Shown: positions 5,137 through 37,805 of the stretch, in pieces | Numbering within the stretch: position 1 is the stretch's first letter | How the letters are laid out: every line of letters begins with the position of its first letter | Assembly: GCF_004343035.1 (NCBI RefSeq) | Contig: NZ_SMCQ01000028.1 | Location: 1-42,257, forward strand | Direction: 5' to 3' | DNA: 42,257 nucleotides | From: Longibaculum muris | Lineage (GTDB): Bacteria > Bacillota_I > Bacilli_A > Erysipelotrichales > Coprobacillaceae | Program-made: the position numbers and the translations under genes | Notes under the pieces: model-generated | Told to the model about the DNA's origin: nothing | The model's database searches: none | Seen by the model: only the letters and a program-made list of their open reading frames with translations

Positions 5137-5163
5137 GGTCATTGGCTATTCGCCAATGACCTT
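5135..5163. terminator. Long hairpin between convergent RpiR and PTS IIB genes
   Basis: Perfect 12-bp stem AAGGTCATTGGC/GCCAATGACCTT with a 5-nt loop, overlapping both stop regions. The T tracts are short on both strands (TTT and TT), so termination strength is uncertain, but its position between convergent genes fits a shared terminator. Confidence 0.6.
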
Positions 5164-5448
5164 TAATGCTGCATCTAAGACTTTTTCTCCATTCATCATA
5201 CCATAATCACGCATTTCAATCACTTGAATTGGTGTTTGCCCTTCAGCTTTTTTAATCAAATAATTGAGCTGATGACGAACTTGTGGTCCCAGCATAACAA
5301 TATCCCATTCTTTAAGCATTGTTTCTGCTTTCGTGATAGGAACGGCCTGAATTTCAATGGATAATCCTCGTGCTTGAGCAGCTTTTTCCATTCTTGAGAC
5401 TAACATGCTTGTTGACATACCCGCATTACAAACTAATAATATTTTCAT
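5146..5448 (-). CDS. PTS lactose/cellobiose-type IIB component
   Basis: A 100-residue stand-alone IIB domain of the lactose/cellobiose PTS family. The phosphorylated residue is Cys7 in LLVCNAGMSTS, the family's P-loop. It receives phosphate from IIA and passes it to sugar bound at IIC. No IIA or IIC gene is adjacent; the only IIC in the window lies 31 kb away. AGGAGG is six bases before ATG, but the 70 bases upstream can fold to hide or expose this site (see leader entry). A HAD phosphatase gene lies upstream on the same strand but is separated by a terminator, so this gene is probably transcribed alone. Confidence 0.9.
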   Translation of the reverse strand: MKILLVCNAGMSTSMLVSRMEKAAQARGLSIEIQAVPITKAETMLKEWDIVMLGPQVRHQLNYLIKKAEGQTPIQVIEMRDYGMMNGEKVLDAALKVIGE

Positions 5449-5518
5449 GAATATCCTCCTTCAAGAGGAGAAAAGCAGAAAAGTAATAAGAATATGATTG
5501 ATAAGTTTCTCCTCTTGA
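5449..5518 (-). promoter_or_regulatory. 5' leader with two mutually exclusive hairpins over the RBS
   Basis: On the minus strand a 13-base segment at 5518-5506 (TCAAGAGGAGAAA) is perfectly complementary to 5473-5461 (TTTCTCCTCTTGA), with a 32-nt loop. The second arm is followed directly by the AGGAGG ribosome binding site (5460-5455). The same arm can instead pair locally with the binding site: TTCTCCT with AGGAGGA, seven pairs with one G-U and a CTTGA loop. The two folds exclude each other, so the long stem would free the site and the short one would hide it. Function is inferred; the pairing is visible in the sequence. Confidence 0.5.
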
Positions 5519-5522
5519 CTTC

Positions 5523-5531
5523 ATTTTATCA
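5523..5531 (-). promoter_or_regulatory. Extended -10 promoter of the PTS IIB gene
   Basis: TGaTAAAAT on the minus strand is an extended -10 without a good -35. The predicted start, about seven bases on, falls at 5516-5518, so the mRNA would begin with the first arm of the leader hairpin. Confidence 0.45.
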
Positions 5532-5623
5532 AAAGCAAGACTTTCATGAGGGGTTATTTTTAAGATTGAAATGAGTTTATCATAAATTATCAATTCGTAT
5601 CTTTTATATTGAAAAAAATTTAT

Positions 5624-5646
5624 CAAAAAAGAAGCCTAAGCTTCTT
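5624..5646 (-). terminator. Intrinsic terminator of the HAD gene
   Basis: Seven-bp stem AAGAAGC/GCTTCTT (5629-5635 with 5640-5646) with a 4-nt loop, followed by T residues on the minus strand. It overlaps the stop codon. Confidence 0.75.
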
Positions 5647-9379: not shown

Positions 9380-12124
9380 TTAATCTTCTTTTTTCTTTTT
9401 TAAGAATACTCCTACACCTGTGATAAGTGCTAAAGAAGCTAACCCAGCAAATGGTAAAATATTTGTTTCATCAGAAGTTTGTGGGTTTTTACCTTGTTCA
9501 CTCTTATCTGGTGTTTGTTCTTTATCATTATTTTGATCTTTATCTTGATTTTGATCCTTGTTGTCATCTTTTACTTTATCAGTAACAGGACGATCAGGAT
9601 TATAAGTTTTAACTCTATCATCATCAATAAGACCAGACCAGTTTAAACCATAAGCAACGTCATAAGTATTACCTTCAGCATCTTTATAACATACTAAATC
9701 ACCAGCAACATCTTCTTTATTTGCTTCTACAGTATCCATATTAGCAGGGAACTGCATTGGTAATAACCCCTTAGGTTCACTCTTACCATTAATGATATCA
9801 AAGATAGCTTGATCACTAACAGAGAAGCTAGCTAAAATAGCGTCACATCTTGATTCAATTTCACTTAAAATAACTGGACCTGAACAGTTAACTGAAGCAA
9901 CAATTGGAATATTCTTTCCAGTTTTCTTCACTGCTTCATAAGCATTGTTAAATGCTGTTAAATCATATTCATTAGCAATCTTAGATGTATTTCCATAATA
10001 AGATCTATTTTGTTGTTTACCATCTACAATATCACCAGCAATTGATGTTTTTCTTACATTTTTACCATCTGCTGTATAAGATGACCATTGTAATGATAAT
10101 GGATAGAATGAAGATTTTCCATCTTTTGTTTGAATACCAGCCTTGCTAAATAGAGAACCATTATTTGGTGATCTCATACCAACAATAACCATATCTACAT
10201 CACTTAAATCTGGAGTTTTCACATTAACTTTTGTTAAATTTCCAGCTTTATCTTTTTCAATTGTTATTTCATCTGTAATAACTTTTCCATAAATTCCTTT
10301 TGCTGTTTCTAAATTTAATGGAGTTACAACACTAGCAGGACTATTTCCAAAGATTGCAGTTTGTGCATCATCAACTGAATGAGGAATATAAACAGTCATA
10401 TCTTTAGGAGCTTTTGTTTGTTGACTTGCTTTTTTAATTAATTGATCCTTATTTTTTAATAAAACAACAGAATCTAATTGAGCTTGGTAACCAGCTTTTT
10501 GATTTTCCGGTTGAGTTGCTCTAGCAATTGATTCATCTAAATCTAAATATGGATTTTCAAAATATCCAGTTTGTAAAGTTAAAGTTAATAAACGTTCAGC
10601 AGATTTTGCAAATACAGCTTTTGCTTGATTAATACCATCTTCTTTAACCATTTTATCATATGAATAACAGATTGGTGCATTATCATTATTTCCCCCAAAC
10701 ATATCTCCACCAACTGATAAAATTCTATGATGTCTATCATTAATCGATAAGTTTTCAACACCCCAAGACATACCTAATCCACCAATTGATAATTCAACTG
10801 GTGCATCTGAAGTTACACCCCAGTCTGTACATACAACCCCATCAAAACCTAAATCTTTTCTTAATAAATTCATTTTCCATGAACTATAAGCACTACCAAC
10901 ACGTTCTCCACCTAATGGACTTCCATCAGCTTTAATTCCAATTGAATAAGAAGTCATGACAGCAGCAGCACTACCAGTTTTTCCTTTCAATTTAAATGAA
11001 GCTTTAAATGGATTTAAGAATTCTTCATAATTTCCACCAGGATAAACAGCATATTTACCAGCAATTGTATGTGATTCACGTCCACCTTCACCAGCACCAT
11101 CACCAGGGAAGTGTTTAATCATACAGTTAATTGAATCTTTTCCCCAACCAACATCTTTGCCATTCACATAAGTCGATTGTGATCCATCTACATAAGCTTG
11201 TGCCATTGTTTGAGATAATTTAGAATTTTCACCAAATGTTCCACCATTACGTAACCATCTTGGTTCAGTAGCTAAGTCCATTTGTGGTCCTAAAGCTGTA
11301 GCAATCCCTAAAGCTCTATATTCTTCAGATGAAGCTTTAGCAAAATTATACATATGTTCTTCACTAAATGTTGCGGCTAATCCTAAGTTAGATGGCCATT
11401 TAGAAATATCAGTAGATCCACCTGCAACGTTATCTGAATATAAATCTCCAGAACCAGCAGTTGAACGAGGGTCAGATGAAAAATCAACTGGAACATTGAA
11501 ATCAGATTCTTCAATGAACGCTTGCATTGCATTTGTCCATCCGACTGCATCTTTAACATCATTTCCTGCAGCATCAGTAATATTTCTTACATAACTGTTA
11601 GTTAAATAATCTTTTTGTGAATCTGTTAAACCGTTCTTACTTACAGCTTCATGCGAACTAAACAACATTAAACCAGCAATTTTTGTAATACCTTTAGGGA
11701 CTTCAACTGTTGTCTTTTTATCTTTATCAACAACAACTTCTACCATTTCAGTATCATTAACCAATTGATCAGCAAGATCTTTTGCTCTTTGTTCTACAGT
11801 CAAACGCCAATCTTCATACTTATCCAATTCCCCATCTTTGTCCATATCTTTGAAGGCATAAGTATATTCTCCGTCTTCGACTTCAAGAATATAATCTTTT
11901 TGTTCTCCATCTTTTTCTTGGACTAATGAAGCAATTGTTTTCCCTCCATTTGGATTCGTTACAACAGCTACTTTTCTTGTTTCTTCTTTCCCATTAACGA
12001 CTGTGTAATAATCCTTAATGACTTTTGTGTAGGCTTTTGTTTCAGCAGCACCTACAGTTCCGCCAGCAAGTACACTTAATGCAGTTGTTGAGGCTGCAAT
12101 ACCTGCAACGAATTTTTTCTTCAT
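9380..12124 (-). CDS. Secreted, cell-wall-anchored GH3 beta-glycosidase
   Basis: A 914-residue extracellular glycoside hydrolase family 3 enzyme. Order: signal peptide (1-27), a perfect EF-hand-type calcium loop at 93-104 (DMDKDGELDKYE), GH3 N-terminal barrel with KHFPG at 337-341 and the predicted nucleophile Asp434 in GVVCTDWG, GH3 C-terminal domain (about 540-820), a charged D/K/Q/N-rich linker, then a wall-sorting-like tail: NPQTSD at 880-885, hydrophobic helix, KKKKED. The tail resembles a sortase signal but with Ser where Gly is usual. Exact sugar specificity (glucoside, xyloside, other) cannot be read. GGAGGA precedes ATG. A possible catabolite operator overlaps the promoter. Confidence 0.9.
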   Translation of the reverse strand: MKKKFVAGIAASTTALSVLAGGTVGAAETKAYTKVIKDYYTVVNGKEETRKVAVVTNPNGGKTIASLVQEKDGEQKDYILEVEDGEYTYAFKDMDKDGELDKYEDWRLTVEQRAKDLADQLVNDTEMVEVVVDKDKKTTVEVPKGITKIAGLMLFSSHEAVSKNGLTDSQKDYLTNSYVRNITDAAGNDVKDAVGWTNAMQAFIEESDFNVPVDFSSDPRSTAGSGDLYSDNVAGGSTDISKWPSNLGLAATFSEEHMYNFAKASSEEYRALGIATALGPQMDLATEPRWLRNGGTFGENSKLSQTMAQAYVDGSQSTYVNGKDVGWGKDSINCMIKHFPGDGAGEGGRESHTIAGKYAVYPGGNYEEFLNPFKASFKLKGKTGSAAAVMTSYSIGIKADGSPLGGERVGSAYSSWKMNLLRKDLGFDGVVCTDWGVTSDAPVELSIGGLGMSWGVENLSINDRHHRILSVGGDMFGGNNDNAPICYSYDKMVKEDGINQAKAVFAKSAERLLTLTLQTGYFENPYLDLDESIARATQPENQKAGYQAQLDSVVLLKNKDQLIKKASQQTKAPKDMTVYIPHSVDDAQTAIFGNSPASVVTPLNLETAKGIYGKVITDEITIEKDKAGNLTKVNVKTPDLSDVDMVIVGMRSPNNGSLFSKAGIQTKDGKSSFYPLSLQWSSYTADGKNVRKTSIAGDIVDGKQQNRSYYGNTSKIANEYDLTAFNNAYEAVKKTGKNIPIVASVNCSGPVILSEIESRCDAILASFSVSDQAIFDIINGKSEPKGLLPMQFPANMDTVEANKEDVAGDLVCYKDAEGNTYDVAYGLNWSGLIDDDRVKTYNPDRPVTDKVKDDNKDQNQDKDQNNDKEQTPDKSEQGKNPQTSDETNILPFAGLASLALITGVGVFLKKKKED

Positions 12125-33939: not shown

Positions 33940-36301
<2,362 letters not shown>

Positions 36302-36364
36302 ATCATTTCCTCCTTAAGCATTATATAATAATTTATCCAAAAAACAAAGGTGAAAAATATGTAG

Positions 36365-36391
36365 AAAAAAGATATCATAAAATATGATACC
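36365..36391 (-). terminator. Intrinsic terminator of the PTS IIC gene
   Basis: Nine-bp stem GATATCATA/TATGATACC (36371-36379 with 36383-36391, one G-U in RNA), 3-nt loop, followed by six T on the minus strand. Confidence 0.8.
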
Positions 36392-36395
36392 TTCA

Positions 36396-37805
36396 CTATA
36401 ACATTGCACTTTCTGATTGTTTATTTTGATATTTTTCATAGGCAATGACAAATGGAATATAAATAAGTGTTGAAGCTACAATGACAATTAATTGTGAAAC
36501 TGCTCCCATAATACTTCCACCTGTTGCTAAGAATCCTAACAATAAAGGTGGCATTGTCCATGGAACTTCTAAAACAACACGTGGACAGAATCCAATTGTT
36601 GTTAAAAACCAACCAATTGTTAATCCAACAGCTGGAACAATCAAGAATGGAATCCCTAAAATTGGATTTAATACCATTGGTAAACCAAAAGTAATTGTTT
36701 CATTGATATTAAATAATCCAGGAACAAGTGATAATGAAGCAATTGCTTTATTATCTTCACGTTTAGCAAACATCCCCATGGCAATTAAAAGACCTAAAGT
36801 CACTCCAGAACCACCAATTTCACCAAACATTTGTAACATTGTTGTATTGAAAATATGTGGTATTTTCCCACTATGTGTTGCATATGCAGTTGTATTAGCA
36901 TAAAGCATTGGTCTAAAGATTGATTCTTTAACCGCTGAAATCATATTTTGACCATGGATTCCAACTAACCAAAACATTTGAGCTAATGTATACATTAAAC
37001 ATACAGCTAAAATATTGTCGCCAATAATTTTAGTTAATGGTTCTTGCACAGCTGTTTTAATAATATCATTAATATATTGACCAGTTATTAATTGTACAAG
37101 CCATCCAATCATTCCAACAACTAATAATGTTAAAAATGTTGGAATCAAGACTTCAAAAGCACGTGTAACTCCTGGTGGAACTTGTTCAGGCATCTTGATT
37201 TTTAAAGCATCCATTTTACGAAAAGCATGATAAATCTCTAATGCTAAAATTCCAATAATTAAAGCTGTAAATAAACCAGTTGCGCCTAAATAATCAGCAT
37301 TAAAACCAGTAAAAGTCCCTACTTGAGATAAATCAGTCACACCATTTTTAGTTAAAACATCACCAATCGAAATAGCTTTATCTGCTTTATCAGTTAACCC
37401 ACTAGCTAGTGATGTGATGGTATGTGCAGTTGGTGTCACAACCGCCCATGACATAAATCCAACAACTGCTGGAAATGCTCCTGTTTCCCCATTTGCTTCT
37501 CCTATTTCTTGAGCAACTAACATAACAATTCCAACTGAAATACATGAGATTGTACAAAATTGAATGGCAGAAAAAACCGCATTAACAGGTTCTAATACCA
37601 TAATTGGACTAAAGATTCCCCCTAATCCTTGAGCATTCCCTTCTACCAATGTATCATTAACCAATACATTTGTCCAAAGTACACTCATCGCTCCAGCAAT
37701 TGTAGCTGGCATAAAGTTTTGAAACGCATTTTTAATAGCACCTAAGTATTTATTCTGTCCAGCCCAAGCGCCAATACGTCCAAGCTTATCAGCAAAAACA
37801 TCCAT
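36396..37805 (-). CDS. PTS cellobiose/lactose-type IIC permease
   Basis: A 469-residue membrane component of the lactose/cellobiose PTS family that translocates and phosphorylates the sugar. It starts with the family's FADKLGRIGAWAGQNKYLGA stretch, has about ten helices and the substrate loop LFNINETITFGLPMVLNP, including the conserved NE(P/T) motif region and the preceding GIHG segment. No IIA or IIB is fused or adjacent, so it must use components encoded elsewhere, perhaps the orphan IIB at 5146-5448. AAGGAGG precedes ATG. Its promoter carries a small dyad over the -10. First gene of the beta-glucoside locus. Confidence 0.92.
   Translation of the reverse strand: MDVFADKLGRIGAWAGQNKYLGAIKNAFQNFMPATIAGAMSVLWTNVLVNDTLVEGNAQGLGGIFSPIMVLEPVNAVFSAIQFCTISCISVGIVMLVAQEIGEANGETGAFPAVVGFMSWAVVTPTAHTITSLASGLTDKADKAISIGDVLTKNGVTDLSQVGTFTGFNADYLGATGLFTALIIGILALEIYHAFRKMDALKIKMPEQVPPGVTRAFEVLIPTFLTLLVVGMIGWLVQLITGQYINDIIKTAVQEPLTKIIGDNILAVCLMYTLAQMFWLVGIHGQNMISAVKESIFRPMLYANTTAYATHSGKIPHIFNTTMLQMFGEIGGSGVTLGLLIAMGMFAKREDNKAIASLSLVPGLFNINETITFGLPMVLNPILGIPFLIVPAVGLTIGWFLTTIGFCPRVVLEVPWTMPPLLLGFLATGGSIMGAVSQLIVIVASTLIYIPFVIAYEKYQNKQSESAML

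Follow-up and report, generated by a model that had tools for sequence, protein, structure and literature searches.

The stand-alone PTS IIB gene of Longibaculum muris is preceded by a leader in which a long inverted repeat ends directly at the Shine-Dalgarno (SD) sequence, which raises the question whether the leader forms a defined RNA structure and what such a structure does for the mRNA. The window, that is the whole stretch of DNA analysed, comprises 42,257 nt of contig NZ_SMCQ01000028.1, with the leader and the IIB gene on the minus strand.

The IIB gene, its leader and helix 1

The features of the locus are as follows, with the basis of each in brackets.

5146-5448, minus strand: stand-alone PTS IIB gene of the lactose/cellobiose type, 100 aa (Pfam PF02302)
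5454-5460, minus strand: SD sequence AGGAGG(A), with AGGAGG at 5460-5455; alternative partner of arm 2 (sequence, folding)
5461-5473, minus strand: arm 2 of helix 1, TTTCTCCTCTTGA, able to pair with arm 1 or, through 5472-5466, with the SD (repeat search, folding)
5474-5505, minus strand: loop of helix 1, 32 nt, with a pyrimidine tract CTTTTCT at 5483-5477 (sequence)
5506-5518, minus strand: arm 1 of helix 1, TCAAGAGGAGAAA, purine-rich and SD-like (repeat search, shuffles, purine count)
5516, minus strand: predicted transcription start A5516, the 7th base after the -10 element, with 5515-5518 possible (promoter spacing)
5523-5531, minus strand: putative extended -10 promoter element TGATAAAAT (sequence; a like element precedes most related lone IIB genes)
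5625-5646, minus strand: intrinsic terminator of the upstream HAD hydrolase gene, AAGAAGC-TTAG-GCTTCTT-TTTT (sequence, repeat search)

The lone IIB gene, which starts with an ATG at 5448, is flanked by the HAD hydrolase gene upstream and by a convergent gene of an RpiR-family regulator. The HAD gene ends in its own terminator, and the IIB gene therefore represents a separate transcription unit. No -35 match was found at the usual distance from the extended -10 element. An earlier note, made from the sequence alone, had let this element start the transcript at arm 1. The element is present at 5531-5523, but the usual spacing would place the start at A5516, two bases inside the repeat, where the outer two pairs are trimmed and 11 bp are left; the leader from this predicted start is about 68 nt long.

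The perfect 13-bp inverted repeat described in that note (5518-5506 and 5473-5461) was recovered both by direct reading and by repeat search. The arms are complementary at 13 of 13 positions and lie 32 nt apart, and arm 2 abuts AGGAGG directly, leaving the SD right behind the stem. None of 200 dinucleotide shuffles of the leader reached helix 1. Perfect repeats of at least 13 bp whose loop does not exceed 45 nt were counted over the 42-kb window; there are 4 distinct sites, where Markov copies average 0.2.

Several identities were considered for the leader and rejected. The window has no match in Rfam 15 at the gathering threshold, and a cut-off relaxed to E 10 brought in nothing above chance level; this agrees with the earlier statement that no known riboswitch class is recognisable, and a riboswitch of a described class was set aside for lack of an aptamer match. 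A transcription attenuator does not fit, as the SD rather than a U run follows the hairpin. A CsrA-controlled leader was discarded because the own genome has no PF02599 match, and a leader peptide because the loop between the arms contains no AUG, GUG or UUG; a 66-aa ORF begins upstream of the promoter. In the literature search, neither this leader nor lone IIB genes turned up.

The gene had also been called an orphan. It does stand alone, but at a distance of 31 kb the window also contains an IIC gene with no IIB beside it (36396-37805, in a cluster at 33958-37805 that includes a family-1 glycosidase and an RpiR regulator), so the lone IIB may be the partner of this IIC. The related loci L013 and L015 have IIC genes close to lone IIB genes, and the IIC of the window shares 54-55% identity with these; L016 has the same arrangement. 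Elsewhere in the window (9380-12124), a glycoside hydrolase family 3 protein of 914 aa possesses a C-terminal NPQTS-like motif, a hydrophobic stretch and a KKKK tail, and looks like a sortase-anchored surface enzyme.

Distribution and variation among related leaders

The own genome encodes many IIB genes, of which the next best is only 53% identical to the window IIB. Close IIB genes were found in 17 of the 43 genomes of the family, and a search of 315 genomes of the order with a relative's IIB gave no addition outside the family; the relatives named here belong to the Coprobacillaceae/Erysipelotrichaceae. The IIB tree groups the window gene with L011 and L092, the two closest orthologues, which are 80-82% identical and syntenic. 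The neighbourhood HAD - IIB - RpiR - HAD is complete in L011 and likewise in L092 within its shorter locus. Their leaders are predicted to be only 15-19 nt long, and no hairpin was found in them. The lone IIB leaders of the family mostly fall in two groups, one short and little structured (15-44 nt) and one longer (39-69 nt) with a hairpin at its start.

Hairpin leaders are present in three further IIB subclades, which include L014 and L109 (two paralogues of one genome), L016, and tandem pairs in L012 and L013. The arm pairs of these leaders are UAAAGAGAGAAG/CUUCUCUCUUUG, UAAGAAAGAGGC/GCCUCUUUCUUA, AGGAAGAGA/UCUCUUCCU, UGGGAAGAG/CUCUUCCUA, GGAAGAG/CUCUUCC and AGGAAGAA/UUCUUUCU. The arms were tabulated by script, MAFFT being unable to align them in structural register. 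The tabulation gave six different arm pairs for helix 1, and almost all of its positions show 2-3 pair types. The 5' arm begins at predicted +1 to +4 in the window, L014, both copies of L012 and L013 (a and b) and L016; for L013 and L016 the first 3 nt of the predicted transcript precede the helix. In L109 no extended -10 was recognised upstream, and its transcription start is unplaced. Compared with shuffles, a helix starting at +1 to +5 had P <0.001 in the window, L014 and L013b, P 0.001 in L012b and L016, and P 0.02-0.03 in the first tandem copies, while the small hairpins near the predicted start in L094 and L017 did not go beyond shuffles. The SD of the relatives follows about 4-13 nt behind the stem.

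A covariance model of three leaders from another genus picked out the window leader ahead of anything else in the 42 kb (21.5 bits, E 0.005), a score that supports a region chosen beforehand and would not stand out in a whole-genome search. The match covers the leader end to end, from the start site to the AUG. Outside IIB leaders, a search for a wider family with the loop motif and covariance model R1 gave noise-level matches only, and the weaker R1 matches that were inspected had no gene or context in common. Loops are long, 16-32 nt in most hairpin leaders. They are conserved between L014 and L013/L016 (P ~0.002), while the similarity of the window loop to those of the relatives is not significant (P 0.1-0.3). 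On the IIB tree the hairpin is patchy, demanding at least 4 changes.

Helix 1 is real, given that shape and place stay while the letters differ between relatives. This comparison gives good support for an RNA structure formed at the mRNA's predicted 5' end, no more than 4 nt from the predicted +1 and present in other IIB subclades. A leader RNA without Rfam entry recurs before stand-alone PTS IIB genes of one gut-bacterial family, with varying letters and a constant shape.

Some further arrangements were observed. The tandem lone IIB genes (L013, 2484-3300; L012, 2962-3783) each have their own extended -10 and hairpin leader, and in L013 an IIC gene follows about 0.5 kb downstream. L031 (Thomasclavelia) and L078 (another MAG) have short-loop hairpins with purine-rich 5' arms before the SD of other IIB genes (TAAATAAAAAGAAC/GTTCTTTTTATTTA; TAAAAAAGATT/AATCTTTTTTA). 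SD-hiding helices in L102 and L112 were set aside, as the predicted promoter lies inside them and the upstream arm would be untranscribed.

Alternative pairing of the SD

The local pairing of arm 2 with AGGAGGA, also pointed out in the earlier note, is available in folding as a helix of UUCUCCU (5472-5466) with AGGAGGA (5460-5454), 7 bp including one U-G, closed by a 5-nt loop. The loop of helix 1 is able to pair with the SD region as well. By computation, the two alternative helices can each form and are mutually exclusive, and helix 1 leaves the SD free. Seven leaders, the window and six relatives, were compared by folding with the arm 1:arm 2 pairs disfavoured by penalties. Removal of arm 1 leaves the SD hidden by arm 2 and the loop, the probability of a free SD being 0.04 in the window and 0.07-0.25 in the six others. 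The earlier claim that loss of arm 1 lets an SD-hiding fold form is borne out to this extent in 7 of 7 leaders. As a control, the arms were replaced by random complementary ones of equal G+C; in most leaders these masked the SD nearly as effectively once arm 1 was taken away, and permuted arms did likewise. The reason lies in the C- and U-rich loop, and the availability of the second fold is therefore no evidence of design.

From the predicted +1, the SD-hidden fold differs from the SD-free fold by +0.6 kcal/mol in the window, -2.9 in L014, -0.5 in L013, 0.0 in L012b, +1.3 in L012a, +2.5 in L016 and +5.4 in L109; the difference is below 3 kcal/mol in 6 of 7 leaders, which is near the error of the method. 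Start-site sensitivity was computed for the window leader, where moving the start from 5518 to 5516 lowers the predicted probability of a free SD from 0.80 to 0.05; with the 11 bp left after trimming, the modelled SD, mostly free before, is already balanced or hidden. The four subclades share a purine-rich arm 1, and a purine fraction of at least 0.83 is reached by 5 of 5 IIB hairpins but by 2 of 41 controls, which are other hairpins close to an SD. Paired changes, which the earlier note had proposed to look for in both helices, are plentiful in helix 1, whereas the arm 2:SD helix has one compensatory exchange only, A-U in L013/L012b against U-A in L016. Separately, in a read-through RNA UCAUGAAAGUCUUGCUU (5533-5549) could pair with the SD and start codon (5445-5461; 17 nt, 76% complementary), and starts at 5545 or 5535 give a predicted probability of a free SD of 0.04-0.05, with the start hidden.

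Interpretation and comparison with known systems

The reading ranked first, to which we give about an even chance, is by analogy a 5'-terminal stem-loop of the aprE type which protects the mRNA and keeps the SD open. The IIB mRNA would start at the extended -10 promoter, and its first nucleotides would fold, arm 1 with arm 2, into a stem-loop at the very 5' end, the SD staying single-stranded just behind it. The double-stranded end would block attack by an RppH-type pyrophosphohydrolase and by RNase J, while helix 1 would hold arm 2 and the pyrimidine-rich loop off the SD. The expected outcome is a long-lived and well translated message, as with the Bacillus subtilis aprE leader. In the folding model the same leader possibly harbours a latent SD-hiding fold; if arm 1 were lost or never formed, the RNA would refold with its SD hidden, and translation would be lost together with the 5' end. 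Several observations count against a stabiliser, namely the missing hairpin in the closest syntenic orthologues, the long loops, and the balanced or SD-hiding energies of the window, L014, L013 and L012b from the predicted +1. The purine-rich arm 1 of the four subclades and the loop conservation between L014 and L013/L016 also speak against a plain stabiliser, which needs neither.

These same features favour the reading ranked second, a translational switch of two states in which arm 1 mimics the SD and arm 2 acts as anti-SD. Arm 1:arm 2 would be the ON state, and in the OFF state arm 2 would pair with the SD and arm 1 with the loop tract CUUUUCU; some event at the 5' end (start-site choice, trimming, an sRNA or a protein) would be the trigger. 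The near-equal energies in several leaders, the effect of the two-base start shift in the window and the compensatory exchange in the arm 2:SD helix are also consistent with it. However, the second helix is no better than composition predicts, the energies are not consistently balanced across leaders, no aptamer or known regulator was found (CsrA being absent), and the nearest orthologues have no hairpin, leaving this reading tentative and somewhat unlikely. The dedicated 5'-end switch of the earlier note was not upheld, given the equal performance of random arms, the absence of an identified trigger and the two nearest syntenic orthologues without such a leader. Its expectation that relatives keeping the gene would keep the complementarity failed in these closest relatives, L011 and L092, and held in four more distant genomes. 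A compact, ligand-free form, where the mRNA opens with 11-13 nt that imitate the SD and couple 5'-end integrity or a 1-2-nt start choice to IIB translation, the arms drifting freely while arm 1 stays SD-like, we consider unlikely; a true SD mimic would be a very small means of linking the state of the mRNA 5' end to translation. The patchy distribution, the bare closest orthologues and the non-significant window loop similarity hint instead at a hairpin without particular function or a product of drift, lone IIB leaders turning over fast and purine-rich starts and pyrimidine tracts yielding such helices. This reading, ranked third, is quite improbable, given that four subclades have long perfect helices in a common register, every one of which far exceeds shuffles. 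A DNA operator, for example of the adjacent RpiR regulator, would suit a dyad that directly follows the promoter and has an RpiR gene as neighbour, but the arms are separated by 32 nt and their sequence varies among the relatives. In L011 and L092, RpiR is retained (71-75% identical) and the repeat is not; an RpiR operator was rejected for this reason, and the operator reading ranks last as very improbable.

Among known systems, translational riboswitches with anti-SD and anti-anti-SD strands share the three-strand logic, one strand having either an upstream partner or the SD, whereas the present leader of only about 68 nt has no aptamer-like conserved core or Rfam match. In start-site switching of the pyrC type, a start choice of 1-2 nt could likewise set which hairpin leader forms; unlike there, the helix of L013 and L016 lies 3 nt inside the predicted transcript, so a start shift should matter less. 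The Helicobacter pylori aapA3 type I toxin mRNA has metastable SD-hiding hairpins (PMC6733600). It is similar in that competing short hairpins decide the hiding of the SD without a small-molecule ligand, and dissimilar in gene, phylum and architecture. Related 5' stabilisers are those of ermC, gsiB and SP82. The aprE 5'UTR acts through a 5' stem-loop and the SD, and removal of the stem-loop reduces stability from >25 min to ~5 min (PMC11805744; see also PMC3997798). Unlike aprE, the present leader has a long, pyrimidine-rich loop and an arm 2 able to pair with the SD. The likeness is one of layout, with a stem-loop at the extreme 5' end and a strong SD close behind in a short Firmicute leader, and with RNase J present, two homologues being encoded.
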